From IMG/VR virus record IMGVR_UViG_3300029892_000023, positions 1 to 20,472 of that record: 20,472 bases of DNA. One strand, written 5' to 3'. Source of the DNA: a virus. The translations under genes and the position numbers were made by a program. This document shows, piece after piece, positions 1,746 through 16,038 of the stretch; positions within the stretch are counted from its first letter, which is position 1, and each line of letters opens with the position of its first letter. The notes beneath the pieces were generated by a model, which worked only from the letters and a program-made list of their open reading frames with translations, was not told where the DNA came from and made no database searches.

Positions 1746-1747
1746 CC

Positions 1748-2303: not shown

Positions 2304-2330
2304 AAGCCCCGGCCCTCGGGCCGGGCGCTT
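2304..2330 (+). terminator. GC-rich hairpin after the ssb gene, possible weak terminator
   Basis: An 8-bp perfect stem (2308-2315 with 2318-2325) can be extended by AAGC (2304-2307) pairing with GCTT (2327-2330), with one bulged base. It starts eight bases past the stop codon. The following bases contain only a short T tract (TTT at 2329-2331), so termination may be partial. It overlaps the left arm of the inverted repeat described next, and the two structures would compete. Confidence 0.4.
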
Positions 2331-2428
2331 TGGTTGCGGTGCTGCGCTGTAAGCCCTGGCGGTACGCCTCTCAACGATGCGCACCATGCCGCCCGGCAGG
2401 AGGCGCCCGCAGCACCGCAACCAAAGCG
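2326..2428. repeat. 103-bp element with perfect 21-bp inverted ends upstream of the DNA polymerase gene
   Basis: Bases 2326-2346 are the exact reverse complement of 2408-2428. Inside, CGCCTC (2365-2370) can pair with GAGGCG (2400-2405), and TGCC (2387-2390) with GGCA (2395-2398). The whole would fold as one long rod. It fills most of the only sizeable gap (2297-2443) in the early operon and ends 15 bases before the polymerase ATG. It could be a structured mRNA leader or small RNA, a MITE-like or REP-like insertion, or a replication signal; sequence alone does not decide. No transposase or target duplication is evident. Confidence 0.75.
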
Positions 2429-2443
2429 AACACGGAAAAGAAC

Positions 2444-4609
2444 ATGACGACCCTCTGGCTTGACCTTGAAACCTACAGCGCGGTGCCCATCACCAACGGC
2501 ACCCACGCCTACGCCGAAGGCGCGGAAATCATGCTTTTCGCCTACGCCCTCGACGACGGCCCGGTGAAAGTGTGGGACTGCACCGCCCGGCCCCTGATGC
2601 CCGACGACCTCGCCGACGCGCTCGACGACCCGTCCGTCATCCTCTACGCCCACAACAGCCACTTCGACCGCACGGTGCTTTGGCATTGCGGCTATCGCCT
2701 GCCGCGCGAGCGCTGGCGCGACACTATGGTCAAGGCCCTGGCCCATTCGCTGCCGGGCTCGCTGGGCGATCTGTGCGACATCCTCAAGATTCCCACCGAC
2801 AAGGCAAAGGACAAGGCCGGCCGCCAGTTGATTCAACTGTTCTGCAAGCCGCGCCCGACCACCAGCAAGGTGCGCCGCGCCACGCGCGAAACACACCCCG
2901 CCGAGTGGGCCAAGTTCGTGGAATACGCCGGGCTCGACATCGAGGCCATGCGCGCCATCGACAAGAAGCTGCCGGCATGGAACTACCAGGCCGGGGAACT
3001 CGCCTTGTGGCACCTCGACCAGGCGATCAACGACCGGGGCGTCATGGTCGACACCGACCTGGCGCACGCTGCCATCCGCGCCGTGGAACGTGCGCAGAAG
3101 GTACTCGCCGCGCGCACCAGTGACCTGACCCTGGGCGTGGTGCAGGCGGCCACCCAGCGCGACGCCCTGCTGCGCCACCTGGTCGCGGCCTACGGCATCG
3201 ACCTGCCGGATATGCAGCAGAGCACGCTGGAACGGCGCATTGCCGACCCCGACCTGCCGGCCGAGTTGCGCGAACTGCTCGCCATCCGGTTGCAGGCCAG
3301 CACCACCAGCACCAGCAAGTACAAGACTCTCGCCAAGGCGGTGAGCAGCGACGGCCGGCTGCGCGGCACGCTGCAATTCAACGGCGCCAGCCGCACCGGG
3401 CGCTGGGCCGGGCGCCTGTTCCAGCCTCAAAACCTGCCGCGCCCCGTGCTCAAGCAGGCCGCCATCGACCAGGGCATCGCGGCCCTGAAAGCGGATTGCG
3501 AGGATCTACTCTTCGGCAACGTCATGGAACTGACCAGCAGCGCAATCCGGGGGTGCATCGTCGCGCCTCAAGGCAAGAAGCTGGTGGTCGCCGACCTCTC
3601 CAACATCGAAGGCCGGGTGCTCGCATTCCTGGCTGGCGAAGAGTGGAAGCTGCAGGCGTTTGCCGACTTCGACACGGTGCAGACCGAGGGCGGCGACTGG
3701 ATAACCGGCACCGAACTGGTGGCGGCCTACCTCGACCGGCGCCCTGTACCCCTGGCGCTCGACGCCAAGGGCGAGCCCATCCGCAAGGGCCACGACCTCT
3801 ACAAGCTGGCCTATGCCAAGTCGTTCGGCATCAAGCCCGAGGCCGTGAGCAAGGACAACCGGCAAGTGGGCAAGGTGCAGGAACTCGCCCTCGGCTATGA
3901 AGGCGGGGTTGGTGCCTTCCTCACATTCGCCGCCGCGTACAGCATCGACCTCGAAGCCATGGGCGAGCAGGCTATCGGCGCCATCCCCGACGCGATCCTG
4001 GGCGAAGCCACCAACGCGCTGGAATGGACGAAGCAGCAGAAGCGCCCGACCTTCGGCCTGACCGACCGCGCCTGGCTGGTGTGCGATTCCTTCAAGCGCT
4101 CGTGGCGCTACGCCCACCCGGCCATTTCCTCATTCTGGAAAGACCTCGAAGAAGCCGCACGCATGGCCGTGCTGCGCCCCGGCGTGACCTACGAATGCCG
4201 CATGTTGAAGCTACGCCGCGACGGTGCCTGGCTGCGCATCCGCCTGCCGTCCGGCCGCTTCCTTTGCTACCCCAGCCCGCAACTCGACGACGCCGGCAAG
4301 CTGTCCTACATGGGCGTCAATCAGTACAGCCGCAAGTGGTCCCGCCTCAAGACCTACGGCGGCAAGCTCGCCGAGAACGTGACCCAGGCCGCCAGCCGGG
4401 ACGTGCTCGCCGGGAACATGCCGGCCATCGAGGCGGCCGGCTACCAGATCGTCCTCTCGGTGCATGACGAAAACATCACCGAAGCCGAGGACTGCGACGA
4501 ATTCAGCGCCGACCACCTGGCCGGCCTGATGGCTACCAACCCACCCTGGGCCAAGGGCCTGCCGCTCGCAGCGGCCGGCTTTGAAGCCTATCGCTACCGG
4601 AAGGACTGA
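2444..4609 (+). CDS. Family A DNA polymerase with N-terminal 3'-5' exonuclease domain
   Basis: This 721-residue phage replicative polymerase has a DnaQ-like proofreading domain: Exo I DLE (D7, E9), Exo II AHNSHFD (N71, D75) and Exo III YAGLD (Y161, D165). The family A polymerase domain follows: GASRTGRWAGR (314-324), motif A VADLSNIEGR (catalytic D384), motif B-like RQVGKVQELALGYEGG (473-488) and motif C SVHDE (H674, D675, E676). The key residues are all intact. The start at 2444 is chosen because GGAAAAG lies just upstream and the exonuclease domain begins there. A longer frame back to 2330 would only read through the inverted-repeat element. Neighbouring SSB, helicase and nucleases complete a phage-encoded replisome. 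Confidence 0.95.
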   Translation: MTTLWLDLETYSAVPITNGTHAYAEGAEIMLFAYALDDGPVKVWDCTARPLMPDDLADALDDPSVILYAHNSHFDRTVLWHCGYRLPRERWRDTMVKALAHSLPGSLGDLCDILKIPTDKAKDKAGRQLIQLFCKPRPTTSKVRRATRETHPAEWAKFVEYAGLDIEAMRAIDKKLPAWNYQAGELALWHLDQAINDRGVMVDTDLAHAAIRAVERAQKVLAARTSDLTLGVVQAATQRDALLRHLVAAYGIDLPDMQQSTLERRIADPDLPAELRELLAIRLQASTTSTSKYKTLAKAVSSDGRLRGTLQFNGASRTGRWAGRLFQPQNLPRPVLKQAAIDQGIAALKADCEDLLFGNVMELTSSAIRGCIVAPQGKKLVVADLSNIEGRVLAFLAGEEWKLQAFADFDTVQTEGGDWITGTELVAAYLDRRPVPLALDAKGEPIRKGHDLYKLAYAKSFGIKPEAVSKDNRQVGKVQELALGYEGGVGAFLTFAAAYSIDLEAMGEQAIGAIPDAILGEATNALEWTKQQKRPTFGLTDRAWLVCDSFKRSWRYAHPAISSFWKDLEEAARMAVLRPGVTYECRMLKLRRDGAWLRIRLPSGRFLCYPSPQLDDAGKLSYMGVNQYSRKWSRLKTYGGKLAENVTQAASRDVLAGNMPAIEAAGYQIVLSVHDENITEAEDCDEFSADHLAGLMATNPPWAKGLPLAAAGFEAYRYRKD

Positions 4610-4612
4610 CCT

Positions 4613-4708
4613 ATGACCATGTACCGCCTTTATCGCATGTACCGAGGCTTCGGCTACGGCCGCGCGCTCGCCCTCAAAACTGCATGGAGGCGCACCCGCC
4701 ATGCGTGA
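4613..4708 (+). CDS. Very small basic protein, 31 aa
   Basis: An ATG three bases after the polymerase stop opens a 31-residue frame (MTMYRLYRMYRGFGYGRALA, then a Lys/Arg-rich tail) that ends inside the start of the HNH gene. It is rich in Arg and Tyr. Short Arg/Tyr-rich proteins of this kind are common in phage early operons, but no function is known to me. The ribosome-binding site for the next gene (GGAGG at 4686-4690) lies within it. Tight spacing supports a gene; the short length keeps confidence moderate. Confidence 0.45.
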   Translation: MTMYRLYRMYRGFGYGRALALKTAWRRTRHA

Positions 4709-5180
4709 GCGTGTCGCCGCGCTTCTGGCCTACAACCCGGACACCGGCATCTTCACCTGGAAGGTAGCGAGAGGTTGCGCCCCCAAAGGCTCGCCGGCCG
4801 GCACGGTCATGGGCAACGGGTATATCAGCATCCGCGTGGATGGTGTTCGCTACCTTGCACACCGCCTCGCCTGGCTGTTGATCCACGGCGAGTGGCCCAA
4901 GGGTGAGGTCGACCACATCAATGGCAGCCGCTACGACAACCGGATCGAGAACCTTCGCGACGTTCCGCGCAGCCTGAACCAGCAAAACCAAACCCGTGCG
5001 CAGGCCGGCAATTCGACCGGCGCGCTGGGGGTTTCCACGGCCGACGCGAAAGGCCGCTTTCGCGCCCGCATTTTCATCAATGGCAAACAGCACCACCTCG
5101 GTACGTTCAAGACCGTGGAGGAAGCAAGCCGCGCCTATGTCACGGCCAAGCGCCAACTGCACCAGGGAGGGGTTATCTAA
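4701..5180 (+). CDS. HNH endonuclease with C-terminal AP2 DNA-binding domain
   Basis: In this 159-residue protein the HNH core reads HRLAWLLIHGEWP (H54) followed by EVDHINGSRYDNRIENLRD (D71, H72, N74, N80, N84). The C-terminal ~45 residues (GALGVSTADAKGRFRARIFI, then HHLGTFKTVEEASRAY) form an AP2/ERF-type DNA-binding domain. HNH-AP2 proteins are usually free-standing homing endonucleases of phages: they nick or cut DNA and spread with their gene. It is inserted between the polymerase and VRR-NUC genes, a typical homing position. A GGAGG precedes the ATG at good spacing. No intron or interrupted gene is seen beside it. A genuine replication or packaging role is a less likely alternative. Confidence 0.9.
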   Translation: MRERVAALLAYNPDTGIFTWKVARGCAPKGSPAGTVMGNGYISIRVDGVRYLAHRLAWLLIHGEWPKGEVDHINGSRYDNRIENLRDVPRSLNQQNQTRAQAGNSTGALGVSTADAKGRFRARIFINGKQHHLGTFKTVEEASRAYVTAKRQLHQGGVI

Positions 5181-5444
5181 ATGCGCGAATCACAGATTGA
5201 AAACTATCTCGTCGAGCGGGTGAAAGCCTTGGGCGGCGAATGTCGGAAGCTGCGGTGGATTGGCCGCAACGGTGCGCCCGACCGTATCGTCATGCTCAAC
5301 GGGCAAGTGATCTTTATCGAACTCAAGGCGCCCGGCGAGAAGGCCAAGCCGCACCAGGTACGTGAGCACGAGCGCATGCGCCGCATGGGCCAGCGCGTCG
5401 AGGTCGTCGATTCCTTTGAGCGCGTCGACGAGGTGCTGGCATGA
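5181..5444 (+). CDS. VRR-NUC domain nuclease
   Basis: This 87-residue minimal VRR-NUC protein of the PD-(D/E)XK superfamily has the pattern GAPDR (P33, D34), then VIFIELKAPG (E47-x-K49) and a downstream HQ (Q59). The family includes stand-alone phage Holliday-junction or flap nucleases. The start ATG is directly after the TAA of the HNH gene and its 3' end overlaps the next start by four bases. In this replication cassette it probably processes branched recombination or replication intermediates; the exact substrate is inferred. Confidence 0.9.
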   Translation: MRESQIENYLVERVKALGGECRKLRWIGRNGAPDRIVMLNGQVIFIELKAPGEKAKPHQVREHERMRRMGQRVEVVDSFERVDEVLA

Positions 5445-5716
5445 AGATAGCGATCCCTGAAAACGTCACGAATTCGCTACGCTTCAAGGTCGGCGACCTG
5501 TACGCCGCTGGTGGCAACAGCAGCAACACCGCCTTCTGGTTGGTTGTCGCCATCACCGAGCGCGGCGGTGCGCACCTGTTGGGCCTGAATGAGGCCGGCG
5601 AGATTGTCAGCACGGCCAGCTACAACGCCCACGCCATCGAATCGCGCCGCAAGGTGGGCCACTGCCCACAAGTCGCAAGCATGACGCTGCACGTTGAAAG
5701 CGAGGTGCTGACATGA
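5441..5716 (+). CDS. Hypothetical phage protein, 91 aa
   Basis: The frame overlaps both neighbours by four bases (ATGA at 5441 and at 5713), so translation is probably coupled. The protein is predicted soluble and beta-rich, with segments FKVGDLYAAGG, FWLVVAITERGGAHLLGLNE and a C-terminal VESEVLT. No catalytic motif or known domain is recognised. Position between the VRR-NUC and dCMP deaminase genes suggests an early accessory role only. Confidence 0.75.
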   Translation: MKIAIPENVTNSLRFKVGDLYAAGGNSSNTAFWLVVAITERGGAHLLGLNEAGEIVSTASYNAHAIESRRKVGHCPQVASMTLHVESEVLT

Positions 5717-6153
5717 GCAAGTGGGACCGCCGCATGTTGGGCCTGGTGAATCTCATCGCCACGTGGAGTAAAGACCCGAGCACGGGCGTGGGCGCCGTGA
5801 TCGTGGATGCCAAGAACCGGGTTGTCTCGCTGGGCTACAACGGATTCCCGCGCGCCGTGTGCGACTCCGACGAGGCCCTGTTCGACCGGGACGAGAAGCT
5901 GCGCCGCACCATCCACGCCGAGGAAAACGCCCTGCTGTTCGCGCGCGGCCCGGTGGAGGGTTGCACCCTCTACGTGACACACCCGCCCTGCGCCCGCTGC
6001 GCGGCCAAGCTGATACAGGCCGGCATTGCCCGCGTCGTCGCGCAGATGCCTGCCGAGGGCTTCGGCGAGCGCTGGGCCGACGACATGCGCAGCGCCTCGG
6101 CCATGTTCCTGGAAGCCGGTGTCGGCTTCGAATACGTGGAGGCCCGGCAATGA
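5713..6153 (+). CDS. Deoxycytidylate (dCMP) deaminase
   Basis: This 146-residue zinc-dependent deaminase converts dCMP to dUMP, feeding thymidylate synthesis for phage replication. The zinc site is visible as HAE (H68, E70) and PPCARC (C93, C96). The substrate-type segment GAVIVDAKNRVVSLGYNGFP (27-46) is typical of dCMP deaminases rather than cytidine deaminases. Length fits the family. No thymidylate synthase is seen in this window. The gene overlaps both flanking genes by four bases. Confidence 0.92.
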   Translation: MSKWDRRMLGLVNLIATWSKDPSTGVGAVIVDAKNRVVSLGYNGFPRAVCDSDEALFDRDEKLRRTIHAEENALLFARGPVEGCTLYVTHPPCARCAAKLIQAGIARVVAQMPAEGFGERWADDMRSASAMFLEAGVGFEYVEARQ

Positions 6154-6428
6154 GCAACGTCGACCAACACCTTGACGCTGTGCTTCGCGCTGCCGGCTCG
6201 GGGTTGCGTTATTACTCGATGCAGAAAACGCTCGACGAAATGCGGGCCGCAATGGGTGCGGCCATGCGCGCCGCAGCGGAAGCCGAGCGGGAAGCCTGCG
6301 CGGCACTATGCGACAGCAAGGTGATGGCACTCGATCACGGCGGCAAAGAATACTACCGGCCGGCGCCTGCCGACCGGTGCGCGGCAGCGATCCGGGCAAG
6401 GGGAAACAGCGCCGAGGGTTTGGTATGA
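6150..6428 (+). CDS. Hypothetical phage protein, 92 aa, helical
   Basis: An ATGA overlap with the deaminase stop sets the start at 6150. The sequence begins MSNVDQHLDAVLRAAGSG, followed by an Ala/Glu/Arg-rich helix (MRAAAEAEREACAALCDSK) and an end motif DRCAAAIRARG. This AEREAC...AAIRARG pattern recurs in small phage proteins of unknown function. A coiled coil is plausible for residues ~25-55. A longer frame starting at 5859 merely runs antisense-free through the deaminase gene in another frame and is not used. Confidence 0.75.
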   Translation: MSNVDQHLDAVLRAAGSGLRYYSMQKTLDEMRAAMGAAMRAAAEAEREACAALCDSKVMALDHGGKEYYRPAPADRCAAAIRARGNSAEGLV

Positions 6429-6655
6429 ACCCGACCCAGCGCGTTGAAGCAGTCCGCACCGCCAAAGCCAAGGTGCTAGAGCACTGCATGTGTGCCCACC
6501 TGGAAGAAACACCGCACCACTACCAAGTGCAGTACCCACCAGGTTGCCACCCCCTATTCGACGGCTGTCGCGTGTCGAAAGGTATGGGGCAATTAAAAGC
6601 CTTGGTTGTGCTGCACGACAAGATGGAAACGCACTACCAGGAAGGCTTGCTATGA
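6425..6655 (+). CDS. Hypothetical phage protein, 76 aa
   Basis: The start at 6425 overlaps the preceding TGA (ATGA), and the stop overlaps the helicase start. The protein has three cysteines and several histidines (EHCMCAHLEETPHHY, GCHPLFDGC), which could bind metal but match no motif I know. The two overlaps make it a confident gene; function is unknown. Confidence 0.7.
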   Translation: MNPTQRVEAVRTAKAKVLEHCMCAHLEETPHHYQVQYPPGCHPLFDGCRVSKGMGQLKALVVLHDKMETHYQEGLL

Positions 6656-8046
6656 CCCGGCAAGCCTTCACCCCACGCGAGTACCAGCAGCCGGTCATCG
6701 ACCACATTCTCGACGTGTCGCGCGACGCCGTGTGGGCCGGCATGGGCATGGGCAAGACTGTGTCCGCGCTGACCGCGCTCGACATCCTTGAAATCACCGA
6801 GCCCGGCCCGGCCTTGGTACTGGCCCCGCTGCGCGTGGCCGCGAGCACCTGGCCGGACGAGGCGACGAAGTGGGCGCACTTGCGCAACGTCGAGGTGTCG
6901 GCCGTCGTCGGCACGCCCGAGGAACGGCGCGCCGCACTCAAGCGGCCGGCGACGATCTACGCCACCAACTACGACAACCTGCCGTGGCTGGTCGAGCACT
7001 TCGGCGACAAGTGGCCGTTCCGCAAAGTGGTGGCCGACGAGAGCACGAAGCTAAAGTCCTTCCGCCTGCGGCAGGGCGGGGTGCGTGCGCAGTCGCTTGC
7101 CCGTGTCGCTCATTGCAAGGTCGACCGTTTCATCGAACTGACCGGCACGCCCAGCCCCAACGGGTTGCAGGACTTGTGGGGGCAGGCGTGGTTCCTCGAC
7201 AAGGGCGTGCGCCTGGGGCGCAGCTTCGAAGCATTCAAGGCCCGGTGGTTCCAGTCCATCCAGGTGGGCAACGACCGCCACGCCGTGCGCCTTGAACCGC
7301 TGCCGTTCGCCCAGGAGCAGATCGAGGACCGCATGCGCGACCTGTGCCTGTCGCTCGACGCGCGCGACTACTTCGACATTTCCCAGCCCATCGTCAACGT
7401 CATCCGCGTGGAACTGCCGGCCAAGGCCCGACGCCTCTACAAGGACATGGAACGGGAAATGTTCCTCGCGCTGGAATGCGGCACCGAGGTGGAAGCCTTC
7501 AACGCGGCGAGCAAGACCATCAAGTGCCTGCAACTCGCCAACGGCGCGATCTACACCGACGACATGTGCAGCGCCTTCGCCGAGATTCACGACGCCAAGC
7601 TGCAAGCGCTTGAGGACGTGGTCGAGGAAGCGGCCGGCATGCCGGTGCTGGTGGCCTACCACTTCAAGAGTGACCTCGCCCGCCTGCAGCGTGCCTTCCC
7701 CAAGGGCCGCACCCTGGACAAAGACCCGCAAACCATCCGCGACTGGAACGCCGGGAAGATCCCGGTCTTGTTCGCCCACCCGGCCAGTGCCGGCCACGGC
7801 CTGAACTTGCAGGACGGCGGCAACATCCTGGCCTTCTTCGGCCACTGGTGGGACTTGGAGCAGTTCCAGCAAATCATCGAGCGCATCGGCCCCACGCGCC
7901 AGGCGCAAGCCGGGCACGACCGCCCGGTATTCATCCACCACATCGTCGCCGCCGACACCGTGGACGAGCTTGTGATAGCCCGCCGCGAATCGAAGCGCGA
8001 GGTGCAAGACCTATTACTTGAAGCCATGAAGAGGAAACAACGATGA
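6652..8046 (+). CDS. SNF2-like superfamily 2 helicase/ATPase
   Basis: This 464-residue SF2 protein has REYQQ (Q-type motif, 9-13), Walker A GMGMGKT (30-36), motif Ia LVLAPLRVAAS, motif II ADEST (D129, E130), motif III TGTPSPN (164-170) and C-terminal helicase segments (LVAYHFKSDLARLQ, ASAGHGLNLQDGG). The motif VI region is QQIIERIGPTRQAQAG. The last part differs from the canonical QxxxRxxRxGQ, but the Arg residues are retained. Phage SNF2-like helicases occur in replication modules. It is probably the phage replicative or branch-migrating motor, as no DnaB-type helicase is seen here. The start at 6652 is used because it overlaps the upstream stop and precedes the Q motif. An in-frame extension to 6490 overlaps another gene. 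Confidence 0.9.
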   Translation: MTRQAFTPREYQQPVIDHILDVSRDAVWAGMGMGKTVSALTALDILEITEPGPALVLAPLRVAASTWPDEATKWAHLRNVEVSAVVGTPEERRAALKRPATIYATNYDNLPWLVEHFGDKWPFRKVVADESTKLKSFRLRQGGVRAQSLARVAHCKVDRFIELTGTPSPNGLQDLWGQAWFLDKGVRLGRSFEAFKARWFQSIQVGNDRHAVRLEPLPFAQEQIEDRMRDLCLSLDARDYFDISQPIVNVIRVELPAKARRLYKDMEREMFLALECGTEVEAFNAASKTIKCLQLANGAIYTDDMCSAFAEIHDAKLQALEDVVEEAAGMPVLVAYHFKSDLARLQRAFPKGRTLDKDPQTIRDWNAGKIPVLFAHPASAGHGLNLQDGGNILAFFGHWWDLEQFQQIIERIGPTRQAQAGHDRPVFIHHIVAADTVDELVIARRESKREVQDLLLEAMKRKQR

Positions 8047-8288
8047 GCGAAGACCGACCCGAGTACGCCGCAGCCCTCACCACCCAGGTGGGCGGCAATC
8101 ATTACAAGGACATGGCTATCCAGCCGGTCGAGTACATCCACAAGAACGGCATCGGCTATTTCGAGGGCTGCGTCATCAAGTACGTGAGCCGGTGGCGCAA
8201 GAAGAACGGCGTCGAGGACTTGAAGAAGGCCCGCCACTTTCTCGACCTGCTGATCGAATTCGAGGACACGCAGCGAGGTGGTCTGTAA
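8043..8288 (+). CDS. DUF3310 family protein
   Basis: This 81-residue protein contains QVGGNHYKDMAIQPVEYIHK, the hallmark start of DUF3310, followed by GYFEGCVIKYVSRWRKKNG and DLKKARHFLDLLIE. These small proteins are common in phage nucleotide or replication modules, sometimes fused to nucleotide kinases; the activity is not established. ATGA overlap with the helicase stop. Confidence 0.9.
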   Translation: MSEDRPEYAAALTTQVGGNHYKDMAIQPVEYIHKNGIGYFEGCVIKYVSRWRKKNGVEDLKKARHFLDLLIEFEDTQRGGL

Positions 8289-8479
8289 TGCCCGACGAAA
8301 TCGACCTCGCCCAGGAGCGCGAACACATCGCCACCAACTCGGCCGTCAATGACGTGCGCGAGAAGGCCGCCCGCATCGAGCCCGGCGTACCGGGCGACTG
8401 CGATCTGTGCGGCGAGTGGTCGGCCCGACTGATTCGCGGGGCCTGCGCCCCGTGCCGTGACAGGTACAAGCTGCCATGA
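8288..8479 (+). CDS. TraR/DksA-like C4 zinc-finger protein, 63 aa
   Basis: The ATG shares one base with the preceding TAA (TAATG). The C-terminal half has CDLCGEWSARLIRGACAPCR, a CxxC...CxxC zinc finger typical of phage TraR/DksA proteins. The N-terminal half is helical and charged. TraR proteins bind RNA polymerase in the secondary channel and mimic DksA-ppGpp. Here the coiled-coil part is short, so it may instead be a generic small zinc-finger protein. Confidence 0.75.
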   Translation: MPDEIDLAQEREHIATNSAVNDVREKAARIEPGVPGDCDLCGEWSARLIRGACAPCRDRYKLP

Positions 8480-8712
8480 GTGAAACCGAATTTTTGACCG
8501 CCGACGAACTGGCCGAGGTGACAGGCTACAAGCACGTCGCCAGCCAGCGCGAGTGGCTGGACAAGAACGGGTGGCCTTACGTGGTGAATGCCTCGGGCCG
8601 CCCCATCGTGGGCCGCTGGGCTGCGCGCATGCGCCTGGCCGGGGTGCAACCGACCGCCACCGGCACGGGCATGCAGCCCGCCGGCCGACCCAACTTTGCC
8701 GCTTTGGATTAA
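8476..8712 (+). CDS. DUF4224 family, excisionase-like protein
   Basis: This 78-residue protein opens with FLTADELAEVTGYKHVASQR, then WLDKNGWPYVVNASGRPIVG: the pattern of DUF4224, a helix-turn-helix-like family found directly upstream of phage integrases. Placement seven bases before the integrase gene supports a role as recombination directionality factor or integrase-associated DNA-binding protein. It could bind the repeated sites near the attachment region; this is inference. Confidence 0.8.
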   Translation: MSETEFLTADELAEVTGYKHVASQREWLDKNGWPYVVNASGRPIVGRWAARMRLAGVQPTATGTGMQPAGRPNFAALD

Positions 8713-8718
8713 GCTGTC

Positions 8719-9783
8719 ATGATGCGCCCGAAGTCAAACCACCGCGACTTGCCGCCCAGGATGCTGCGCCGCGTGCGCACGCTGAAAAGCGGCAAGGTTT
8801 GGGAATCCTTCTACTACAACGGCCGCGACGCCACCGGGCGCCGGGTCGAGATTCCGCTCGGGCACGATCTAAACGAGGCCAAGCGCAAGTGGGCCGAGTT
8901 GGAATGTCGCGAGGCGCCAGCAGAAACCGGCCTGATGCGGTTCGTGTTCGACCGCTACGAGCGCGACATCATCCCCACCAAGGCGCCCAAGACGCAGAAG
9001 GACAACCTCGGGTGCCTGGCGATGCTGCGCAAGGTATTCGACGCCGTGGGCATCGACACTATCACCCCGCAATATGTTGCGCAGTACCGTGACAAGCGAG
9101 GCGCCAAGGCCCCGGTTCGGGCCAACCGTGAAATCGCGCTGCTTTCCCATGTGTGGAACATGGCCCGCGAGTGGGGCTATACAGCCAAGGAAAACCCGGT
9201 CAAGGGCGTGCGCAAGAACAAGGAAAAGCCCCGCGACTTCTACGCCGACGACGCCGTGTGGTCCGCCGTATATGCCGCCGCGTGCGTCGAGTTGCAGGAC
9301 GCCATGGATTTGAACTACCTCACCGGCCAGCGTCCGGCCGACGTGCTCAAGATGCGCCTCGCCGACATCAAGGACGGCGCCATCGAGGTGCAGCAGAACA
9401 AGACCAAGAAGAAATTGCGCATCCTGCTGGACGATGAAGGCGCGCGCACCGAGTTGGGCAAGGTCATCGACCGTATCAAGGGCCGTGAGCGCAAGGTGGC
9501 AAGCCTGTTCCTGATTGCCACGCCGGCCGGCAAGGCGCTGAACCAATGGACGCTGCGCACCCGGTTTGACGACGCGCGGGCCGATGCCGCCAAGGTGGCC
9601 GCCGAAGCCGGCGACGAGCAACTGGCCGTCAGAATCCGCGCCTTCCAGTTCCGCGACATCCGGCCCAAGGCCGCGTCGGAAATGGACCTCGAACACGCCA
9701 GCAAGCTGCTGGGCCACACCGAGCAGGAGATAACCGAGAAGGTCTATCGTCGGGTGGGCGAAACCGTGAAGCCGACCAAATGA
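8719..9783 (+). CDS. int: Tyrosine recombinase (phage integrase)
   Basis: In this 354-residue integrase the catalytic domain shows TGQRPADVLKM (box I Arg, R205), a Lys-rich beta-hairpin QNKTKKK (~227-232), FQFRDIRPKAAS (box II with R315; the usual His is replaced by R312) and LLGHTEQEITEKVY (H333, nucleophile Y343). The N-terminal ~70 residues have an AP2-like arm-binding look (GKVWESFYYNGRDATGRRVE). It catalyses site-specific integration and excision. It lies 33 bases from a tRNA-Ser gene, the probable attachment site, with an excisionase-like gene just upstream. ATGATG at 8719-8724 leaves the exact start uncertain by one codon or more. Confidence 0.95.
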   Translation: MMRPKSNHRDLPPRMLRRVRTLKSGKVWESFYYNGRDATGRRVEIPLGHDLNEAKRKWAELECREAPAETGLMRFVFDRYERDIIPTKAPKTQKDNLGCLAMLRKVFDAVGIDTITPQYVAQYRDKRGAKAPVRANREIALLSHVWNMAREWGYTAKENPVKGVRKNKEKPRDFYADDAVWSAVYAAACVELQDAMDLNYLTGQRPADVLKMRLADIKDGAIEVQQNKTKKKLRILLDDEGARTELGKVIDRIKGRERKVASLFLIATPAGKALNQWTLRTRFDDARADAAKVAAEAGDEQLAVRIRAFQFRDIRPKAASEMDLEHASKLLGHTEQEITEKVYRRVGETVKPTK

Positions 9784-9810
9784 AAACGGCCCCATGCTCG
9801 GGGCCGTTTT
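9783..9810. terminator. Bidirectional intrinsic terminator after the integrase
   Basis: An 11-bp perfect stem (9783-9793 with 9800-9810) has a 6-nt loop, with A4 at the 5' side and T4 at the 3' side. It can therefore terminate transcription from either strand. It overlaps the last base of the integrase stop codon and separates the early operon from the tRNA. Confidence 0.88.
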
Positions 9811-9816
9811 CGCACC

Positions 9817-9907
9817 TGGCGGAAGCGGTGAGATTCGAACTCACGGAGGGGTATCAGCCCTCGGTGCTTTTCAAGAGCACTGCCTTAAACCACTCGGCCA
9901 CGCTTCC
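9817..9907 (-). tRNA. tRNA-Ser, anticodon UGA, complete with CCA
   Basis: On the minus strand this is a full 91-nt class II tRNA. Acceptor stem GGAAGCG pairs with CGCTTCC, discriminator G plus encoded CCA; D arm GCC...GGC; anticodon stem GTGCT/AGCAC with loop CTTGAAA (TGA); long variable arm GAGGG/CCCTC; T arm GTGAG/CTCAC with loop TTCGAAT. Every stem is perfect, so it looks functional. Beside an integrase it is the likely attachment locus. Its presence as a whole gene with phage genes on both sides is unusual. Confidence 0.95.
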
Positions 9908-9932
9908 AATTCTGCCCGCCGCCCCGTGGGGG

Positions 9933-10143
9933 TTGCGGAAATGATTTCCGCAAGTTGCGGAAACGATCAAGAAAAACCCTTATAAATCAACGCGCTCGGA
10001 GGCTATGCAACTGCTTTCAAGTCCTCGGAGTAAATGAGGAAAATCAACAGGTTAGAAGCAAATCATTTCCGCAACCCGCTATGATTTGAGTATTCTAACC
10101 CGTTGATTATGCGTTAGGCTATAGGGTACATGCGGAAACGATT
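9933..10143. repeat. Five copies of a TTGCGGAAAYGATT motif in both orientations
   Basis: Copies are at 9933-9946 (+), 9940-9953 (-), 9955-9968 (+), 10061-10074 (-) and 10130-10143 (+). The core TGCGGAAA is invariant. The first two overlap head to head, forming a perfect 10-bp-arm palindrome (9933-9953) with one central base; the third follows directly. Copy number, mixed orientation and placement beside int and the tRNA fit binding sites for integrase, excisionase or a repressor. Confidence 0.85.
10042..10108. repeat. 67-bp nested inverted repeat
   Basis: The outer arms 10042-10057 and 10093-10108 match at 15 of 16 positions. Inner arms 10059-10066 (CAAATCAT) and 10081-10088 (ATGATTTG) match perfectly. 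One copy of the TTGCGGAAA motif lies in the loop side. The structure could be a cruciform, a protein-binding dyad or part of the attachment site. It ends about 50 bases upstream of the small membrane-protein gene. Confidence 0.8.
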
Positions 10144-10157
10144 TTGAGGGGTTCGCC

Positions 10158-10298
10158 ATGACGAAAGAGCACAAGGTACTTGCAGGCATCGCCGCCCTGA
10201 TTGGGCTGTTCTTTGCTCTCGGATGGGACGCCATGGCCTACCTGGCGTGCGCAGCTTTCGGGCTGTACGCCGGCCGGGACGTTTTCCGCGAAGCATAG
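10158..10298 (+). CDS. Small membrane protein, 46 aa, alone on the + strand
   Basis: The ATG at 10158 has a good GAGGGG six bases upstream. The product begins MTKEHKVLAGIAALIGLFFA and has two hydrophobic stretches (about residues 7-23 and 25-39) with a charged C-terminus (AGRDVFREA). It lies between the repeat-rich region and the convergent lysis operon. Such solitary genes near the attachment region of temperate phages are often lysogeny-expressed (superinfection exclusion or host modification). No homology is recognised, so function is open; a holin-like role is another option. Confidence 0.65.
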   Translation: MTKEHKVLAGIAALIGLFFALGWDAMAYLACAAFGLYAGRDVFREA

Positions 10299-10338
10299 CG
10301 GCGAAGGCGGGCCGCGTAGGTGCGCAAGATCCCTGCCT

Positions 10339-10773
10339 TCACTTGGTCGCCCTCTTCAACTTCTCCCAGGTGCGTGCGCCTGCAATGCCCAGCATGCCAG
10401 TGATGAGAACCATGAGGGCCTCGACATCGAGCAGCGGAGGCGGGTTCAAATTGGCCGCGATCCAGCCGGCGGCCTGCATGCCGTTCCAACCCCACACCAG
10501 CAGCGGGTAGAGGATGAACTGATAGGCCAAGGCGATGACACTGACCCAGCCCACCGCCGGGCGCCAGCCGGCCACGAACACACTGGCGTGCCGGGCCTCT
10601 TCCTTGTTGACCTCAAGCTGTCCGCCCAGCCGTTCGGATTCCGCGCGGTAGGCTTCCGTCTCGGCCTTGAGCCCTTCAATTTGCAGCTTCGCCCGTTCCT
10701 CGTCGGAAGTGAAGAGGCTGTCCGCCACCTTCCCCACGGTGTCGATGATGCCGCCGATAAGCAGGGGGTTCAT
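10339..10773 (-). CDS. Phage holin of the 3-TM (Holin_3TMs) type
   Basis: This 144-residue protein has an N-terminal MNPLLIGGIIDTVGKVADSL, a charged helical linker (residues ~23-60) and hydrophobic segments VFVAGWRPAVGWVSVIALAY and FILYPLLVWGW, with a third near the C-terminus (ALMVLITGMLGIAG). The GWRPAVGW motif is typical of 3-TM holin family proteins. It controls timing of lysis by permeabilising the inner membrane. Its start overlaps the endolysin stop (ATGA), giving a classic lysis pair; it is the last gene of the late operon. Confidence 0.88.
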   Translation of the reverse strand: MNPLLIGGIIDTVGKVADSLFTSDEERAKLQIEGLKAETEAYRAESERLGGQLEVNKEEARHASVFVAGWRPAVGWVSVIALAYQFILYPLLVWGWNGMQAAGWIAANLNPPPLLDVEALMVLITGMLGIAGARTWEKLKRATK

Positions 10774-11276
10774 GCTGCCTCCCGAAGTGTGCGATTGATC
10801 CAGCCCAGCAGGAATTTTTGCTGGGTGCGGTCCTTGGTCACGATGTCACGGTACCGGGCCAGCTTCGCCAGGGCGTAGGCCAGCGCGAATTTATCTGGGT
10901 CCATGGTGTTGAGCGCGGCCAGGGTCTTGGGGCCGATCTTGCCGTCCGGCGTGGCGCCGCTCACGATCTGCGCCAGGCGCACCGCCGTGGCGACGCCGGT
11001 ATTCACGGCGAAGTCGAACACGTTGCGCGCCACCACCTGGTTGGTGATGTTGTCGCCGCGAATCGGCGTCCAGAAGTTCATCCGGTAGAACTGGCGCACC
11101 AGTTCGGTGTCGGGAATGTCGCCCGCGTCGATGGCGGCCCAGCCCGGCCAGTGTGGGTGGAAGTTGCGGGCGATGCCGGCGTAGGTCATGCCGCCCCGGT
11201 CGCCCTCAACGGTGTGCAGTTTGTAGCCGCCCTCGTTCCGAATCATGGACTCGAAGGCTTGCAGGAAATCGGCCAT
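10770..11276 (-). CDS. Endolysin, glycosyl hydrolase family 108 (N-acetylmuramidase-like)
   Basis: This 168-residue enzyme has the GH108 signature EGGY (catalytic E15) in FESMIRNEGGYKL, then DRGGMTYAGIARNFHP and a C-terminal peptidoglycan-binding domain of the PG_binding_3 type (ATPDGKIGPKTLAALN). No signal peptide or N-terminal membrane anchor is visible, so it depends on a holin for release, consistent with the adjacent holin gene. It cleaves the peptidoglycan glycan strand at lysis. Family assignment is confident; exact bond specificity is inferred. Confidence 0.93.
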   Translation of the reverse strand: MADFLQAFESMIRNEGGYKLHTVEGDRGGMTYAGIARNFHPHWPGWAAIDAGDIPDTELVRQFYRMNFWTPIRGDNITNQVVARNVFDFAVNTGVATAVRLAQIVSGATPDGKIGPKTLAALNTMDPDKFALAYALAKLARYRDIVTKDRTQQKFLLGWINRTLREAA

Positions 11277-11277
11277 A

Positions 11278-11535
11278 TCAATGCCCCCCTACCTTGGAAA
11301 CGATACCGGCCCACATGGCGGCCATGGCCGCAGCAGCGATAACGCCCATCACGGCGAGAAGCCCGTGGTCGGCGGCCTTACGCATGCGCTTGCCGAAGCG
11401 CAAGTCCTCGCGGAATTCCTCGACCGACTCGGGCTTATCGACATCGACGCCGAGAATGGCAAACACTTTCTTGACGGCTCGGTCGGCGGCTTCTTGGCAT
11501 GTGTCGTCGTGGCAACGGCGGTTCAGTTCTTGCAT
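11278..11535 (-). CDS. Small phage membrane protein (possible holin or lysis accessory), 85 aa
   Basis: GGGGAG precedes the ATG. The N-terminal half is charged with two Cys (NRRCHDDTCQEAADRAVKK), followed by an ILGVDVDKPESVEEFREDLR segment and one C-terminal transmembrane stretch (HGLLAVMGVIAAAAMAAMWA). The pattern resembles a family of small phage proteins found immediately upstream of GH108 endolysins (DUF6127-like; from memory, unsure). An N-in anchored lysis regulator is plausible. Confidence 0.75.
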   Translation of the reverse strand: MQELNRRCHDDTCQEAADRAVKKVFAILGVDVDKPESVEEFREDLRFGKRMRKAADHGLLAVMGVIAAAAMAAMWAGIVSKVGGH

Positions 11536-11549
11536 TTCTTCTCCCCTGG

Positions 11550-11885
11550 TTAGCAGTGATCCCCGGTCGGATCGAATACATCGAGCAGATGCTCACAAAT
11601 GAAAGTGGCGAGGCGGTTGCGCCATCCTGTGTCGGTGCGCTTGTATCGAATCAGCCGCGCCGTGACCAATGCCTCGCGCGGCCAGTCGAGAAATACCAGC
11701 GGCGCGATGAATAGGTTGGCGGCCACGTCCATGAGATAACCGAAGCCCACCACGGGCAGCGCCAGCACCTTGTTGAGCCCCACTAGGCGCTGCGATAGGT
11801 GCGCGCGATAGATGCCCATGACGAGCACGTAGGCGCACCAAAAGGCGTACAGGTAAGCGAGCATCGAGAACAGAACAAGGCTCAT
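11550..11885 (-). CDS. Phage membrane protein, 111 aa, with conserved C-terminal FDP-x-G-x-HC
   Basis: The start at 11885 overlaps the upstream TGA (ATGA), which favours it over a longer frame reaching 11999. Hydrophobic segments SLVLFSMLAYLYAFWCAYVL and VLALPVVGFGYLMDVAANLF suggest two membrane spans. A basic region (TARLIRYKRTDTGWRNRLAT) and the end ICEHLLDVFDPTGDHC follow. This type of protein is recurrent next to phage lysis genes; function unknown. No lipobox or spanin-like signal is evident. Confidence 0.75.
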   Translation of the reverse strand: MSLVLFSMLAYLYAFWCAYVLVMGIYRAHLSQRLVGLNKVLALPVVGFGYLMDVAANLFIAPLVFLDWPREALVTARLIRYKRTDTGWRNRLATFICEHLLDVFDPTGDHC

Positions 11886-12361
11886 AGCTTGGCCCCCTCG
11901 GTGAAGAGGTCGTCGAGTTGGGCACTGGTCCAGCCGAACGCGGCCGACAGTGCAGCCGCCAGGGGCGAGTCCCGGCGCACTTCCTGGGCGTATTCCCATT
12001 CGATGCGGGCCGCGTCGCCCTCGGTGCCGGGCATGTTGGCCACGGCGGTATTGACCTGGGCCAGCAGGCCGGCGCCGAGCAGCGCGAGGCGAGCCTGCCG
12101 CATGGTCACGACCTCGGGCACGGCAACAACCGCCGGCACATATTCGGGCAATGCCGGCGGCTGCGCGTCCGGGAAGTCGGCGCGGGTGAAGTTAAAGCGC
12201 TCGATGGTCGAGTTGTCCTCGATGGCGACCCAGGCTTGCGCCGTGTCGTCCTTTTCCAAGCGCCACAAAGTACCCGCCAGCAGGGCCATGAAGGCGACGT
12301 GCTCGGGCGTGCCGGCAATCGCGTCCAAGTCCTCGCGGGTGTTAATGGAGGGCAATCCCAT
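11882..12361 (-). CDS. Hypothetical tail-fibre-associated protein, 159 aa
   Basis: The C-terminal third (MRQARLALLGAGLLAQVNTA, then RIEWEYAQEVRRDSPL) resembles a common phage module encoded next to tail fibres and often annotated as fibre assembly or XkdW-like. The N-terminal part (DLDAIAGTPEHVAFMALLAG) occurs in related proteins. The first 20 bases overlap the 3' end of the reverse-transcriptase gene, so the two may be translationally coupled. It could be a chaperone for the receptor-binding protein, but that is inference. Confidence 0.75.
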   Translation of the reverse strand: MGLPSINTREDLDAIAGTPEHVAFMALLAGTLWRLEKDDTAQAWVAIEDNSTIERFNFTRADFPDAQPPALPEYVPAVVAVPEVVTMRQARLALLGAGLLAQVNTAVANMPGTEGDAARIEWEYAQEVRRDSPLAAALSAAFGWTSAQLDDLFTEGAKL

Positions 12362-13328
12362 GTCGATTCTCCAGCCAGGTAAAAAGGTGATTGGCGTCGG
12401 CCCACATCGCGTGGCCGGACCATGAGGCGAGAAACTTTTGCAGCCCCTCGTCCTCGCCGTGTTTGATGAAGTTGGCGACCTTGCGCTTGGCGCGGGTCAC
12501 AGAGTCTTTGCGCAGCAGCTTGTGGCTGGGCCAGATGCGATAGCCCAGGAAGTTGATGCCGCGCGAAATCGGGGCAACCTGCCAATGGCTGATGCGCAGT
12601 TTCAGGTGCTCGGCGGCGAAGTCGCGCAGGTTGTAGAACACCTGGCGCAGTTCCTCAGGGTCGTCGCCCAGCACCACGATGTCGTCCATGTAGCGCGCCC
12701 AATGGCGCCGCTTGAGGTCGTGCTGCAGGAACTGGTCGACGGCGTTGCCGTAGATGTTGGCGAACAGTTGCGAGGTCAGGCTCCCGATGGGAATGCCGAC
12801 GCCTTCCTCGGGCAGCATTTCGCGCAGCAGCCGGCGCGTGGCCGCGCAGTGGATTTTCTTGTCGAGCATCCGGTACAGGGCCGCGTGCTCGACGCTCGGA
12901 AAGAACTTCGAGAAATCCGACTTCATGAAGTGGGTCGCCTTGGTGCGGCGCAATTCGGCCTGCACATGACGGACACCCGCGTGCGTCCCTTTGCCGGGGC
13001 GGCAGGCGAAGGTATAGGGCAGCATGCCGGCCTCGAAGATGGGCGCGATGATGTTGCAGGTAGCGTGCTGCACCAGGCGGTCCTTGAAGTCCAGGGCGGA
13101 AATCATCCGGGCCTTGGGCTCGTAAATCAGGAACTCCCGATAGGGGCCGCGCTTGTAGCTGCCATCCAGCAATTCAGCCTGCACGGCCAGCAGATTGGCG
13201 AGGTCGTATTCCTTGAATTCCAGATAACCCCACGTCCGGCGCTTGCCGTTGGAGGTCTTGCGGTAGGCGTCGACCAGGTTGTCCCACGCTGCGATCTGCT
13301 GGATTAAATTTCTGTTGCGTTTGCTCAT
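12342..13328 (-). CDS. brt: Diversity-generating retroelement reverse transcriptase
   Basis: This 328-residue RT has the catalytic YMDD at 213-216, the first palm Asp in KSDFSKFFPS (D138) and the DGR-typical IGSLTSQ (181-187) in place of the QG-x-x-x-SP of group II intron RTs. It also has RPGKGTH (110-116) and LGYRIWP (261-267). No maturase, endonuclease or RNase H domain is present. It copies the template-repeat RNA into adenine-mutated cDNA that replaces the variable repeat in the tail-tip gene. The ATG at 13328 is preferred: the frame stays open upstream to 13961, but that stretch runs through the TR and the avd gene and has no RT homology. The SD before this ATG is weak. Confidence 0.96.
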   Translation of the reverse strand: MSKRNRNLIQQIAAWDNLVDAYRKTSNGKRRTWGYLEFKEYDLANLLAVQAELLDGSYKRGPYREFLIYEPKARMISALDFKDRLVQHATCNIIAPIFEAGMLPYTFACRPGKGTHAGVRHVQAELRRTKATHFMKSDFSKFFPSVEHAALYRMLDKKIHCAATRRLLREMLPEEGVGIPIGSLTSQLFANIYGNAVDQFLQHDLKRRHWARYMDDIVVLGDDPEELRQVFYNLRDFAAEHLKLRISHWQVAPISRGINFLGYRIWPSHKLLRKDSVTRAKRKVANFIKHGEDEGLQKFLASWSGHAMWADANHLFTWLENRHGIALH

Positions 13329-13482
13329 GAAAGAAGTCGGCCGCGCCTTTCCATTTTCAGTAATCAGCGCTCTACCGAACCGCGAAACGTATTTGCCGAA
13401 GCAGGACAAAACCGGCTGACCACCTTCGATAACCGAAAGGTCGGCCTGCCAAGCCGTAGCATTGACAGAGCGGGAAGATAAA
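13329..13482 (-). other. Spacer between TR and RT gene, probable 3' part of the template RNA
   Basis: These 154 bases have no gene in the sense direction. In BPP-1 the corresponding ~140-nt spacer is part of the structured template RNA that binds the RT-Avd complex and supplies the cDNA priming site. Here a stem-loop is possible near 13423-13445 (ACCTTTCG against CGAAGGT, one bulge). The role is by analogy; the sequence shows only position and length. Confidence 0.55.
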
Positions 13483-13603
13483 GTGGACACAGACGCCGCG
13501 CGCCCCGATGTTGTTGTTCGAGTTCGTGGGCGAGTTATTCCAATTCGAACAACGAGAACCGGACTCAGTCGTGTTGCCCCAGTTGCCCCCAAGGAGGACG
13601 GCG
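13483..13603 (-). repeat. DGR template repeat (TR)
   Basis: 121 bp match the VR at a constant offset of 552 bp with 19 mismatches and no gaps. Read on the minus strand it translates through NWGNTTESGSRCSNWNNSPT and NSNNNIGARGVC. It is rich in AAY (Asn) codons, the hallmark of templates designed so that adenine mutagenesis changes amino acids without creating stops. It starts directly after the avd stop (13604-13606) and lies 154 bases before the RT start, as in BPP-1-type DGRs. By hand count it has 24 sense adenines, 9 of which differ in the VR. Confidence 0.95.
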
Positions 13604-13987
13604 CTATTTCCCGGATTGCCCTTTGCGTCCCACGCGGACTATCCAAGCCCCGAGAATCCGCCCCACCTCCGCTATCAGCACTTGTGCTGTTTCGACCTGA
13701 TGGGGAGTCATCGCGCGAACTTTTCCACCCGCGAGAAACCGCAACCAAAACCGCAGCATGGCAAGACCGGCGTCCGCTGCGTACAGCTTGCTGACCTGGT
13801 TCGACTTGCCCGCCACGATGAATAATTCGACCTGCCCGAGCAGGCACTCCAAAAACATATTGCGTGCTACGCCGTGCGCCCTCGGGAGACTTTGCGCAAT
13901 GGGATACAGGTACGAAATTACCTTTTCGTACTTCTCCACAATGAGCATTTGGTCGTAGCATTTAACGCCTTCCTCTATTGGTTCCAT
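13604..13987 (-). CDS. avd: DGR accessory variability determinant (Avd-like four-helix protein)
   Basis: This 127-residue, almost all-helical protein (VEKYEKVISYLYPIAQSL, RNMFLECLLGQVELFIVAGK, LYAADAGLAMLRFWLRFLAG, VETAQVLIAEVGRILGAWIV) matches the four-helix-bundle Avd type. It has a basic C-terminus. In BPP-1, Avd forms a pentamer that binds RT and template RNA and is required for cDNA synthesis and retrohoming. It lies between the VR hairpin and the TR, its usual place. No clear Shine-Dalgarno precedes the ATG at 13987; translation may depend on the upstream gene. Base composition is visibly less GC-rich than that of the neighbours. Confidence 0.9.
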   Translation of the reverse strand: MEPIEEGVKCYDQMLIVEKYEKVISYLYPIAQSLPRAHGVARNMFLECLLGQVELFIVAGKSNQVSKLYAADAGLAMLRFWLRFLAGGKVRAMTPHQVETAQVLIAEVGRILGAWIVRVGRKGQSGK

Positions 13988-14000
13988 GCGCTTAGTACAG

Positions 14001-14020
14001 GCGGGGCCTTTCGGCCCCGC
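14001..14020 (-). other. DGR target-site hairpin/cruciform downstream of VR
   Basis: A perfect 8-bp GC stem (14001-14008 with 14013-14020) has a GAAA tetraloop in the sense direction. It lies 14 bases past the VR end, and its first base is the last base of the target gene's TAG stop. BPP-1 has an 8-bp stem with a GAAA loop just after its VR that promotes retrohoming. No T-run follows, which argues against a terminator. Confidence 0.88.
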
Positions 14021-15084
14021 TAATCAAGGATCAGGTGGTCACAGACGCCGCGCGCCCCGATGTGGTTGTTCGAGAACGTGGGCGAGATGGGCCAGTACGA
14101 GGCACGCGAACCGGAGTTCGACGTGTTGCCCCAGTCGCCCCCAAGGAGGACGGCGTTTTCCATCTGGTACGTGGAACCACGCCCGCCCGTGTTGGCCGTC
14201 CAGCTTGCCGCTGCTGCCCCACCGCCGAACTCGTCGCCCCAGACCCACATGCAGCCAGATGACTGGATGCATCCCCATTTTGAGGTGTAGGCGGCATTCA
14301 GGACGGTGCTTCCTTGATCGGTGCCGACAGAACTTGCCTCGGTTGTACCGTAGGCCAACGCGGCAAATTCGTCATAGGTCGGCGAACGCTTGCCCCACGA
14401 TTTCAGAACTTCATTGGCTTCCCACCAGTTCATACTGGCATAGGCGCTTGTTCCGTTACCGCCGAACTTCGTGGGGATCTTCGGCGGGCTGCTGCCGTCG
14501 GCAATGGTCACGTTGTACTTGGATGTGCCATTGGTCAGGTGATCGACACCCAAAAGATAGATGTCAGACCAGAACGAGTCAGCTACCAGCGTCATGCCGC
14601 GCGGGTCCGGGCATGCCGGGCGGAACTTCAAGTCCCAGAACGAGTAGGCATTGATGGCCGGCGTAGTGTCACCGCCCGCTTGCGCAGCAGCGTTGCCACC
14701 CGGCGCGTAGTGGAATCCGCCGATCTTGCGCCAGTTGCCAGCGCCTGGTGCTGACGTGTGGCTGCTGGATGCCTGAATGGTCGCATCATCTTTGAGCCAG
14801 ATGGCGTAGTCGGTGCCAGCCGTGAGCGTCGGCATGGTGATTGCGGTATCGGCTGCAAACTGCACCAGCGTACCGGCCACATCAACTTTGGTGCCTGCCT
14901 TGATACTGGCAGCGCCGGCAGCGGTTTTGGTGAAAGCAACGGCTGCCGGATCTGCTTTGACAAACAGGCCGTAGGCCGGAACAGAGGCAAAGCCGCCGCG
15001 CGGCACGGTGACATTGACGTTCCCGGCGCCATCTTCCGGGACAAGGGTGATGGAGCCGCTGGCTGAATCAAGTTGCATGGACAT
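14020..15084 (-). CDS. mtd: DGR-diversified receptor-binding tail protein (Mtd-like, C-type lectin fold)
   Basis: This 354-residue protein has an N-terminal beta-rich part (DSASGSITLVPEDGAGNVNV) resembling the trimerisation region of Bordetella phage Mtd (381 aa). The C-terminal half is a formylglycine-generating-enzyme/C-type lectin fold (MNWWEANEVLKSWGKRSPTY, GCMWVWGDEFGGG, IGARGVC). The last 40 residues before LILD (311-350) are the variable repeat. Differences from the template fall at residues 317, 322, 323, 328, 330, 332, 333, 337, 341 and 349, with the WG, SGSR, SPT and IGARGVC scaffold kept. It sits at the tail tip and binds the host receptor; diversification changes host tropism. AGGAG lies six bases before the ATG. 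Confidence 0.93.
   Translation of the reverse strand: MSMQLDSASGSITLVPEDGAGNVNVTVPRGGFASVPAYGLFVKADPAAVAFTKTAAGAASIKAGTKVDVAGTLVQFAADTAITMPTLTAGTDYAIWLKDDATIQASSSHTSAPGAGNWRKIGGFHYAPGGNAAAQAGGDTTPAINAYSFWDLKFRPACPDPRGMTLVADSFWSDIYLLGVDHLTNGTSKYNVTIADGSSPPKIPTKFGGNGTSAYASMNWWEANEVLKSWGKRSPTYDEFAALAYGTTEASSVGTDQGSTVLNAAYTSKWGCIQSSGCMWVWGDEFGGGAAAASWTANTGGRGSTYQMENAVLLGGDWGNTSNSGSRASYWPISPTFSNNHIGARGVCDHLILD
14035..14155 (-). repeat. DGR variable repeat (VR) with 3' IMH-like block
   Basis: This is the ungapped partner of the TR (102 of 121 identical), forming the 3' end of the receptor-binding gene. The 3' sense end (14040-14063) is a 24-bp GC-rich block identical to the TR and would serve as the IMH that marks where cDNA integration begins. 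Just beyond it, a single sense A (VR) against T (TR) at 14039/13487 may distinguish IMH from the TR-side IMH*. The hairpin follows 14 bases later. Confidence 0.94.
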
Positions 15085-15096
15085 GGTTTTCTCCTG

Positions 15097-16038
15097 TTAA
15101 AGCGATGATCCTGCTGCGTACTTGCGCACGATCAGCAGCGTTGTGCTTGGGACGGTCAGCTTGACGCCATGATTGACGCGCAGATTGCGGCCCGTCTCGT
15201 ACTCGGTGTCCGCGTTCAATGTGGTGTTTGCTGAAATGGTCTTTGAGGCATAGCCAGACGTGAGTTCTGCTGAAATGACGCCTGTTGCAGCGTTGTACGA
15301 CACGGCTCCGGTCGCGCTCAATGCTGCGCGGGCGCGTGCCGTGGTGAAGTAGAGGTTGGTCGCGCCTTCGGTCAGTGAATCGGTCGTGCCTGGTGATGGG
15401 CTGATTTCCACGTAGGCCGATCCAGACCAGCGATAGGTCTTGTTGGTGTCCAGTGCCACATAGATTTTTGCCGTCTCACCGATGGCCGGAAAACCTGCTG
15501 TGTTGGCGTACTCAAGAACGTCGTCGACATAGGACGGCAGATACGCGGCAGGCACTTTGCTGTCCGCGCCAAGCGGTGCGATGCCGTTGGCTGCGTTTTT
15601 CTGCGCTGCATCCAGCGGGGTAAATCCCAGCGCACCAGTCACGTCGGTGCTTTGCAGCATGACGGCGCCAGTGCGACCGAACACGCTTTGTACGGGTGCT
15701 GCTGCTGCGGCCTGCGTGGTATCGGTGAAACTGTCCAGCGTGCCCGCCGTAACACGCATCTCAAGACGCGAACCTACCGGCCAGATGCGTGCCGTGGTGC
15801 CCTCCTGTGCCCGTTCGATGGTCAGGCCATCCGTGGCCCGTGACGTGCACTTCACGACTTCCCATGCCGTCTCTGCCCCATTGCCATCCAGCAGGATCAA
15901 AGTGGCCAGGAAGTGATCGCCGCCACTTGGCGCAGGGAAGCGTGCGCCTTGGCCGGTGGCCAGGGTTGCCAGCGTCCCGGCTGCCGACAGTTCGGCGGCC
16001 AGTGAGGCAAAAGCATTGTTCTTGAAAACCTGTGTCAT
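15097..16038 (-). CDS. Tail fibre protein, 313 aa
   Basis: The protein starts MTQVFKNNAFASLAAELSAA, followed by a small beta domain (RATDGLTIERAQEGTTARIW) common to phage fibre proteins. A linker (VQSVFGRTGAVMLQSTDVTG, typical of fibre shafts), a YRWSGSAYVEISPSPG segment and the repeat-type LYFTTARARAALSATGAVSY motif follow. It lies immediately upstream of the DGR target and downstream of an adaptor gene, so it probably joins the receptor-binding protein to the tail. Start overlaps closely with the preceding stop (one-base gap). Confidence 0.85.
   Translation of the reverse strand: MTQVFKNNAFASLAAELSAAGTLATLATGQGARFPAPSGGDHFLATLILLDGNGAETAWEVVKCTSRATDGLTIERAQEGTTARIWPVGSRLEMRVTAGTLDSFTDTTQAAAAAPVQSVFGRTGAVMLQSTDVTGALGFTPLDAAQKNAANGIAPLGADSKVPAAYLPSYVDDVLEYANTAGFPAIGETAKIYVALDTNKTYRWSGSAYVEISPSPGTTDSLTEGATNLYFTTARARAALSATGAVSYNAATGVISAELTSGYASKTISANTTLNADTEYETGRNLRVNHGVKLTVPSTTLLIVRKYAAGSSL

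Follow-up and report, generated by a model that had tools for sequence, protein, structure and literature searches.

Diversity-generating retroelements of the BPP-1 type

The closest described system to the locus considered here is the diversity-generating retroelement (DGR) of Bordetella phage BPP-1 (AY029185), which comprises the target protein Mtd, the accessory protein Avd (Bbp7) and the reverse transcriptase (RT) Brt. Going by published work on BPP-1, the RT and Avd of such an element would copy the RNA of the repeat TR with errors opposite adenines, and the resulting cDNA would then replace the repeat VR at the 3' end of mtd, with the 3' end of VR (IMH) and a hairpin marking the target for this homing. 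Indeed, both the IMH and the hairpin are required in a DGR target, and entry of the cDNA into VR needs at least 8, and better at least 19, identical bases upstream (PMC3240598).

The locus lies in a linear virus DNA record of 20,472 bases, which was analysed over its whole length and is referred to below as the window. Its DGR is real, complete and of the BPP-1 type; it adds one more example to a known system and, taken purely as a DGR, is unremarkable. The pairing of its parts is a different matter, in that an mtd gene of the lineage represented by L042 (IMGVR_UViG_3300024988_000026) and L052 (IMGVR_UViG_3300029893_000165) has probably been joined by natural recombination to a hairpin-avd-TR-RT cassette of the lineage represented by L004 (IMGVR_UViG_3300000185_000016) and L067 (IMGVR_UViG_3300010216_000002), without the cassette having rewritten it since.

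Parts of the element and their homologues

The initial annotation had described a complete DGR on the minus strand in BPP-1 order, and all the parts are found where it placed them. The target gene mtd (14020-15084, 354 aa; this and all features below lie on the minus strand) carries VR (14029-14155, the same repeat as that previously given as 14035-14155) at its 3' end and is followed by a hairpin with an 8-bp stem and a GAAA loop (14001-14020), by avd (13604-13987, 127 aa), by TR (13477-13603), which directly adjoins the avd stop, and by a spacer of 148 nt (13329-13476; 154 nt with the earlier TR end) that leads to the RT gene (12342-13328, 328 aa). The RT motifs IGSLTSQ (12768-12788) and YMDD (12681-12692) are both present, the latter intact as had been claimed. 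The remaining genes of the window encode an exonuclease, a DNA polymerase, an HNH endonuclease, a helicase, an integrase, an endolysin and tail fibre and adaptor proteins, a content consistent with a fragment of a temperate podophage.

The proposal that the DGR targets a receptor-binding protein is supported by homology of the target to BPP-1 Mtd, from which such a role would follow. The protein matches Pfam mtd_2nd (E 1e-21) and the solved BPP-1 Mtd proteins (PDB 1yu0-1yu4, 2iou; E about 1e-122) over residues 39-354; its first 38 residues do not align with them, and the likeness to Mtd that had been ascribed to the N-terminal region is not borne out there. Homology to the solved Mtd, VR included, predicts a C-type lectin fold with variable residues. 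Identity to the window Mtd is highest in L052 (92%), followed by L042 (87%), L004 and L067 (75-76%) and BPP-1 (62%), which places the gene with the L042/L052-type lineage. An mtd-like stretch also occurs in gene 17 of the Escherichia phage T7 records LR745707-LR745709, at about 66% in two of them, these records being perhaps of laboratory-made phages.

Avd scores above the cut-offs of Pfam bAvd (E 6e-35) and NCBIfam DivGenRetAVD (E 5e-32) and matches PDB 4dwl (E 3e-70) and 8ub7; avd is 98% identical to that of L004, and Avd 88% to that of BPP-1. The RT (Pfam RVT_1) matches 8ub7, the structure of the BPP-1 RT, over its full length at E 1e-190, the next family following at E 4e-18. Placement of the RT in a tree had been suggested as a check and was carried out: in a tree confined to related RTs, it groups with the BPP-1 RT in a clade (support 100/98). 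The window RT is 96% identical to that of L004, 81% to that of BPP-1 and 60-61% to those of L042 and L052. The solved Mtd, Avd and RT structures thus match the window proteins in sequence across nearly their whole length. A 539-aa open reading frame (12342-13961) was considered as the RT gene and rejected, since the same frame extends back through TR and avd, and homology to the RT begins at 13328, as in BPP-1. RTs 80% identical to that of the window are also encoded in L118 (9947-11034) and L007 (3584-4671), from Pandoraea nosoerga and another record, and no avd, mtd or TR/VR pair was found near either.

The GC-rich 3' end of VR (IMH) is followed by a hairpin with a GRNA loop, GCGGGGCC-GAAA-GGCCCCGC, for which a DNA fold of -12.2 kcal/mol (z -4.1) is calculated. 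The hairpins of the relatives differ by lineage, such that the L004/L067 side has GCGGGGCC-GAAA or GCAA-GGCCCCGC and the L042/L052 side has GGCGGC-GACA-GCCGCC; the window hairpin is of the BPP-1/L004/L067 type.

Mismatches between TR and VR

TR and VR align without a gap over 127 nt at 83% identity, with TR outside the target gene mtd and VR inside it, at its 3' end; a repeat of this kind in such an arrangement is far beyond chance. The richness of TR in AAY codons noted in the initial annotation is confirmed, with nine in a 30-codon stretch, eight of which share positions with AAY codons of the BPP-1 TR. The mismatches are another matter. They are not dominated by adenines, an anomaly that the initial annotation missed: of 21 mismatches in 127 positions, nine face a template A (43%) and 12 face another base. 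Adenine-directed differences between TR and VR are a common criterion for recognising DGRs, and it is for this reason that the mismatch matters. The differences of the window VR lie mainly at template adenines when it is set against the TRs of L042 and L052, and do not when it is set against its own. Even so, A sites are still mismatched more often than non-A sites in the window's own pair (9/25 vs 12/102, p 0.007). The departure from adenine bias is read as the mark of a re-paired DGR, the component parts of which remain of DGR type.

Three of the 12 non-A mismatches lie in the 3'-terminal part, in which a difference between the IMH of VR and the IMH* of TR is normal. The other nine fall within the VR core (14085-14120), at 14119, 14118, 14116, 14107, 14103, 14102, 14101, 14095 and 14089, in an alignment of VR with seven TRs. 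TR/VR pairs of relatives, the latter identified in IMG/VR with RT and Mtd as queries and among genome contigs with RT as the query, provide the scale for these numbers. Among 74 distinct pairs, mismatches occur at 1046 of 2031 A sites and at 116 of 6977 non-A sites; the share at A has a median of 92% and a minimum of 57%, and non-A mismatches never exceed six in a pair. At the pooled non-A rate the 12 of the window have p about 1.5e-7, in a calculation in which the pairs are non-independent, and at the highest single-pair rate (6.25%) they are moderately unusual (p 0.026). Accordingly, the weight of the case is carried by the comparisons described below.

Fit of VR to a foreign template

When all TRs are compared with all VRs, only the window clearly has a VR for which a foreign TR far outperforms the resident one, the sole other listing, the L014 VR with the L022 TR, amounting to a difference of two sites. 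Against the TRs of L042 and L052 the window VR has two non-A and 11 A mismatches, as compared with 12 and nine against its own. Moreover, all nine core differences fit the L042/L052 TR, eight by carrying its base and the ninth, 14107, by lying opposite an A in it, from which it follows that, in the genome as sequenced, the VR core is not the product of the TR now beside it. The sites 14149, 14146 and 14145, towards the 5' end of VR, match the resident TR and L067 and disagree with L042/L052, and these count against a swap. That this TR diversifies this VR, as the earlier suggestion of a functional system implied, is not supported in that form, although the parts look intact.

It could be argued that TR and VR have always been paired, and that mutation of the usual kind, or an RT with another error bias, produced the non-A differences; a few non-A mismatches do, after all, occur in other pairs, as the 116 sites above attest. 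Drift or random error, however, would not bring all nine core differences into agreement with the TR of a different lineage. In addition, L004 has a TR that matches the window TR at 97% identity and a near-identical RT, and its own pair shows A-directed change (10 A and two non-A differences), and the VR of L067 fits the window TR with almost exclusively A changes. The window TR is thus a template in use in another lineage and not a drifted one, and a lasting pairing with drift or altered bias is highly improbable.

Two further observations belong here. The first 19 bases of VR (14137-14155) are identical to the resident TR and to the VR of L067, forming a small mosaic patch. L116 (5214-7453) has a single TR, upstream of which stand two mtd-like copies that both end in a VR-like sequence; this record was considered as a second outlier and rejected, the signal being a VR-VR match between the two mtd copies, and the comparison with TR giving 15 A and two non-A mismatches.

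The putative join between the lineages

The hairpin, avd, TR, RT and the genes beyond (about 10300-14020) are mostly 91-100% identical to L004, with the lowest bins at 85-89%, and are as close to L067 wherever L067 sequence exists. Above about 14062 identity to L004 and L067 drops to 70-90%, and L042, L052, L068, L069 and L071 become the closer relatives, with blocks nearly identical to the window in L042 (98-100% at about 14650-15640) and L052 (100% at about 14400-14600). This switch of partner places the putative join at 14022-14062 on the minus strand, in the conserved 3' end of VR (IMH) and as far as the mtd stop. The trees of RT and Mtd conflict in the same manner: the RT data reject a clade of the window with L042 and L052 (p-AU 0.0007) and the Mtd data reject a clade of the window with L004 (p-AU 0.002), p values which are descriptive, as the groups were picked after the similarities had been seen.

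The position of the switch bears on whether the mtd gene itself was exchanged. DGRs can home to a target elsewhere, given an IMH, a hairpin and short homology (PMC3240598), such that cDNA made by the DGR of a coinfecting L042-type phage might have converted VR in trans, with mtd left in place. The body of mtd and the tail genes upstream of it, however, follow the L042/L052/L069 group just as VR does, and an exchange of mtd is therefore needed anyway, which leaves conversion in trans with very little to commend it.

A crossover in the 3' end of VR and an assembly join at that place predict an identical contig. It could be, therefore, that the sample contained two related phages and that assembly fused the mtd-bearing part of one with the DGR-bearing part of the other at the conserved 3' end of VR, in which case each real phage would hold an ordinary A-directed TR/VR pair. 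The join does fall exactly in a stretch common to both lineages, a single record shows the pairing, with no second contig bearing it found in the IMG/VR searches, and variation of VR within populations would be expected to hamper assembly. Against this, exact matches between the sampled parental types across the 3' end of VR, where the join would lie, reach no more than 32 nt, which is short relative to the usual assembler word length, although the assembler used here may differ. The window is also mosaic elsewhere, and BPP-1 and L008, too, sit on different branches in the RT and Mtd trees, which means that re-pairing occurs in the group. An assembly chimera is on these grounds rather unlikely, and natural recombination is favoured over it.

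The window phage is, indeed, a mosaic of several lineages. Its replication and integration half (1-10300) shows up to 94-98% identity to contigs including L182, L183 and L184 (from the set L176-L184 and L190). Contigs that carry a related replication module (L182, L190 and others, several of them short fragments) gave no match when searched for RT and Mtd.

Proposed origin and fate of the pairing

If natural recombination is the correct reading, mtd and its VR would have come from an L042/L052-type phage, with VR already diversified by the DGR of that phage, and the hairpin-avd-TR-RT unit from an L004/L067-type phage. The observed pattern suggests that the two were brought together by a crossover within the conserved 3' end of VR. 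Homing from the present TR, once it took place, would overwrite the foreign VR core and erase the mismatch, so that the record would catch the state before the first use of the new pairing. Homing looks possible, given that TR and VR agree in an unbroken run of 19 bases at the repeat's 5' end and in another of 24 near its 3' end, and, as all the parts look intact, the TR/VR pair may still work.

Loss of the cassette in related phages

The surveyed phages also show the opposite fate, in which the cassette is repeatedly deleted and mtd retained. In several BPP-1-like phages internal deletions have removed most of avd, TR and RT and left mtd and VR, with junctions that differ: L067/L134 (600-900), L069 (4820-5210), L071 (7040-7333), L086/L139, L088 (6940-7300), L101 (6930-7440), L103 (6945-7250) and L143 (about 6380-6450). 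L069 and L071 share an identical junction in two metagenome records, and in L086 avd is whole, with TR and most of RT gone. Such a deletion would freeze the receptor-binding protein. In L077, L082, L087 and L100 no avd, TR, RT or GC-rich hairpin was found downstream of mtd, which is followed directly by the next gene; here the DGR was either lost or never acquired. Deletion and exchange together mean that cassette and target separate in this group both ways.

Significance

The failure of the adenine-bias test in the window has a reason that becomes visible through the relatives, in that the pair looks recombinant. If the swap is real, the target gene and the mutagenesis cassette can come apart and be paired anew, as modules, right beside the homing site, and a swap can be caught before its first homing. 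A wider reading, offered tentatively and as a possibility that falls short of being the likelier one, is that the conserved VR 3' end serves as a natural exchange point for receptor-binding genes and mutagenesis cassettes in this group. Were it true, a cassette could take charge of an mtd that a different DGR had diversified, or restore a DGR to an mtd that had lost its own by deletion (as in L069/L071), and TR/VR pairs rich in non-A mismatches would be fresh swaps and not the product of another RT error bias. A limited literature search found no paper on an mtd/cassette swap of this kind, which does not imply that there is none.

Comparison with known systems

The window shares with BPP-1 its gene order, strand, hairpin stem, GAAA loop and the adjoining of TR to avd. 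The cassettes are 76% identical in DNA and the Mtd proteins 62%, the first 38 residues of the window Mtd having no counterpart match in BPP-1, and the TR/VR mismatches of BPP-1 number 18 A and four non-A, as against nine A and 12 non-A in the window. L004 is like the window in gene order, RT, avd and TR and has a similar hairpin, and differs in Mtd. L067 has the same hairpin, but little of its avd and RT remains and its TR is gone. L042 and L052 resemble the window in Mtd and in DNA blocks of 99-100% identity, and differ from it in the 3' end of TR and in a 6-bp hairpin with a GACA loop.
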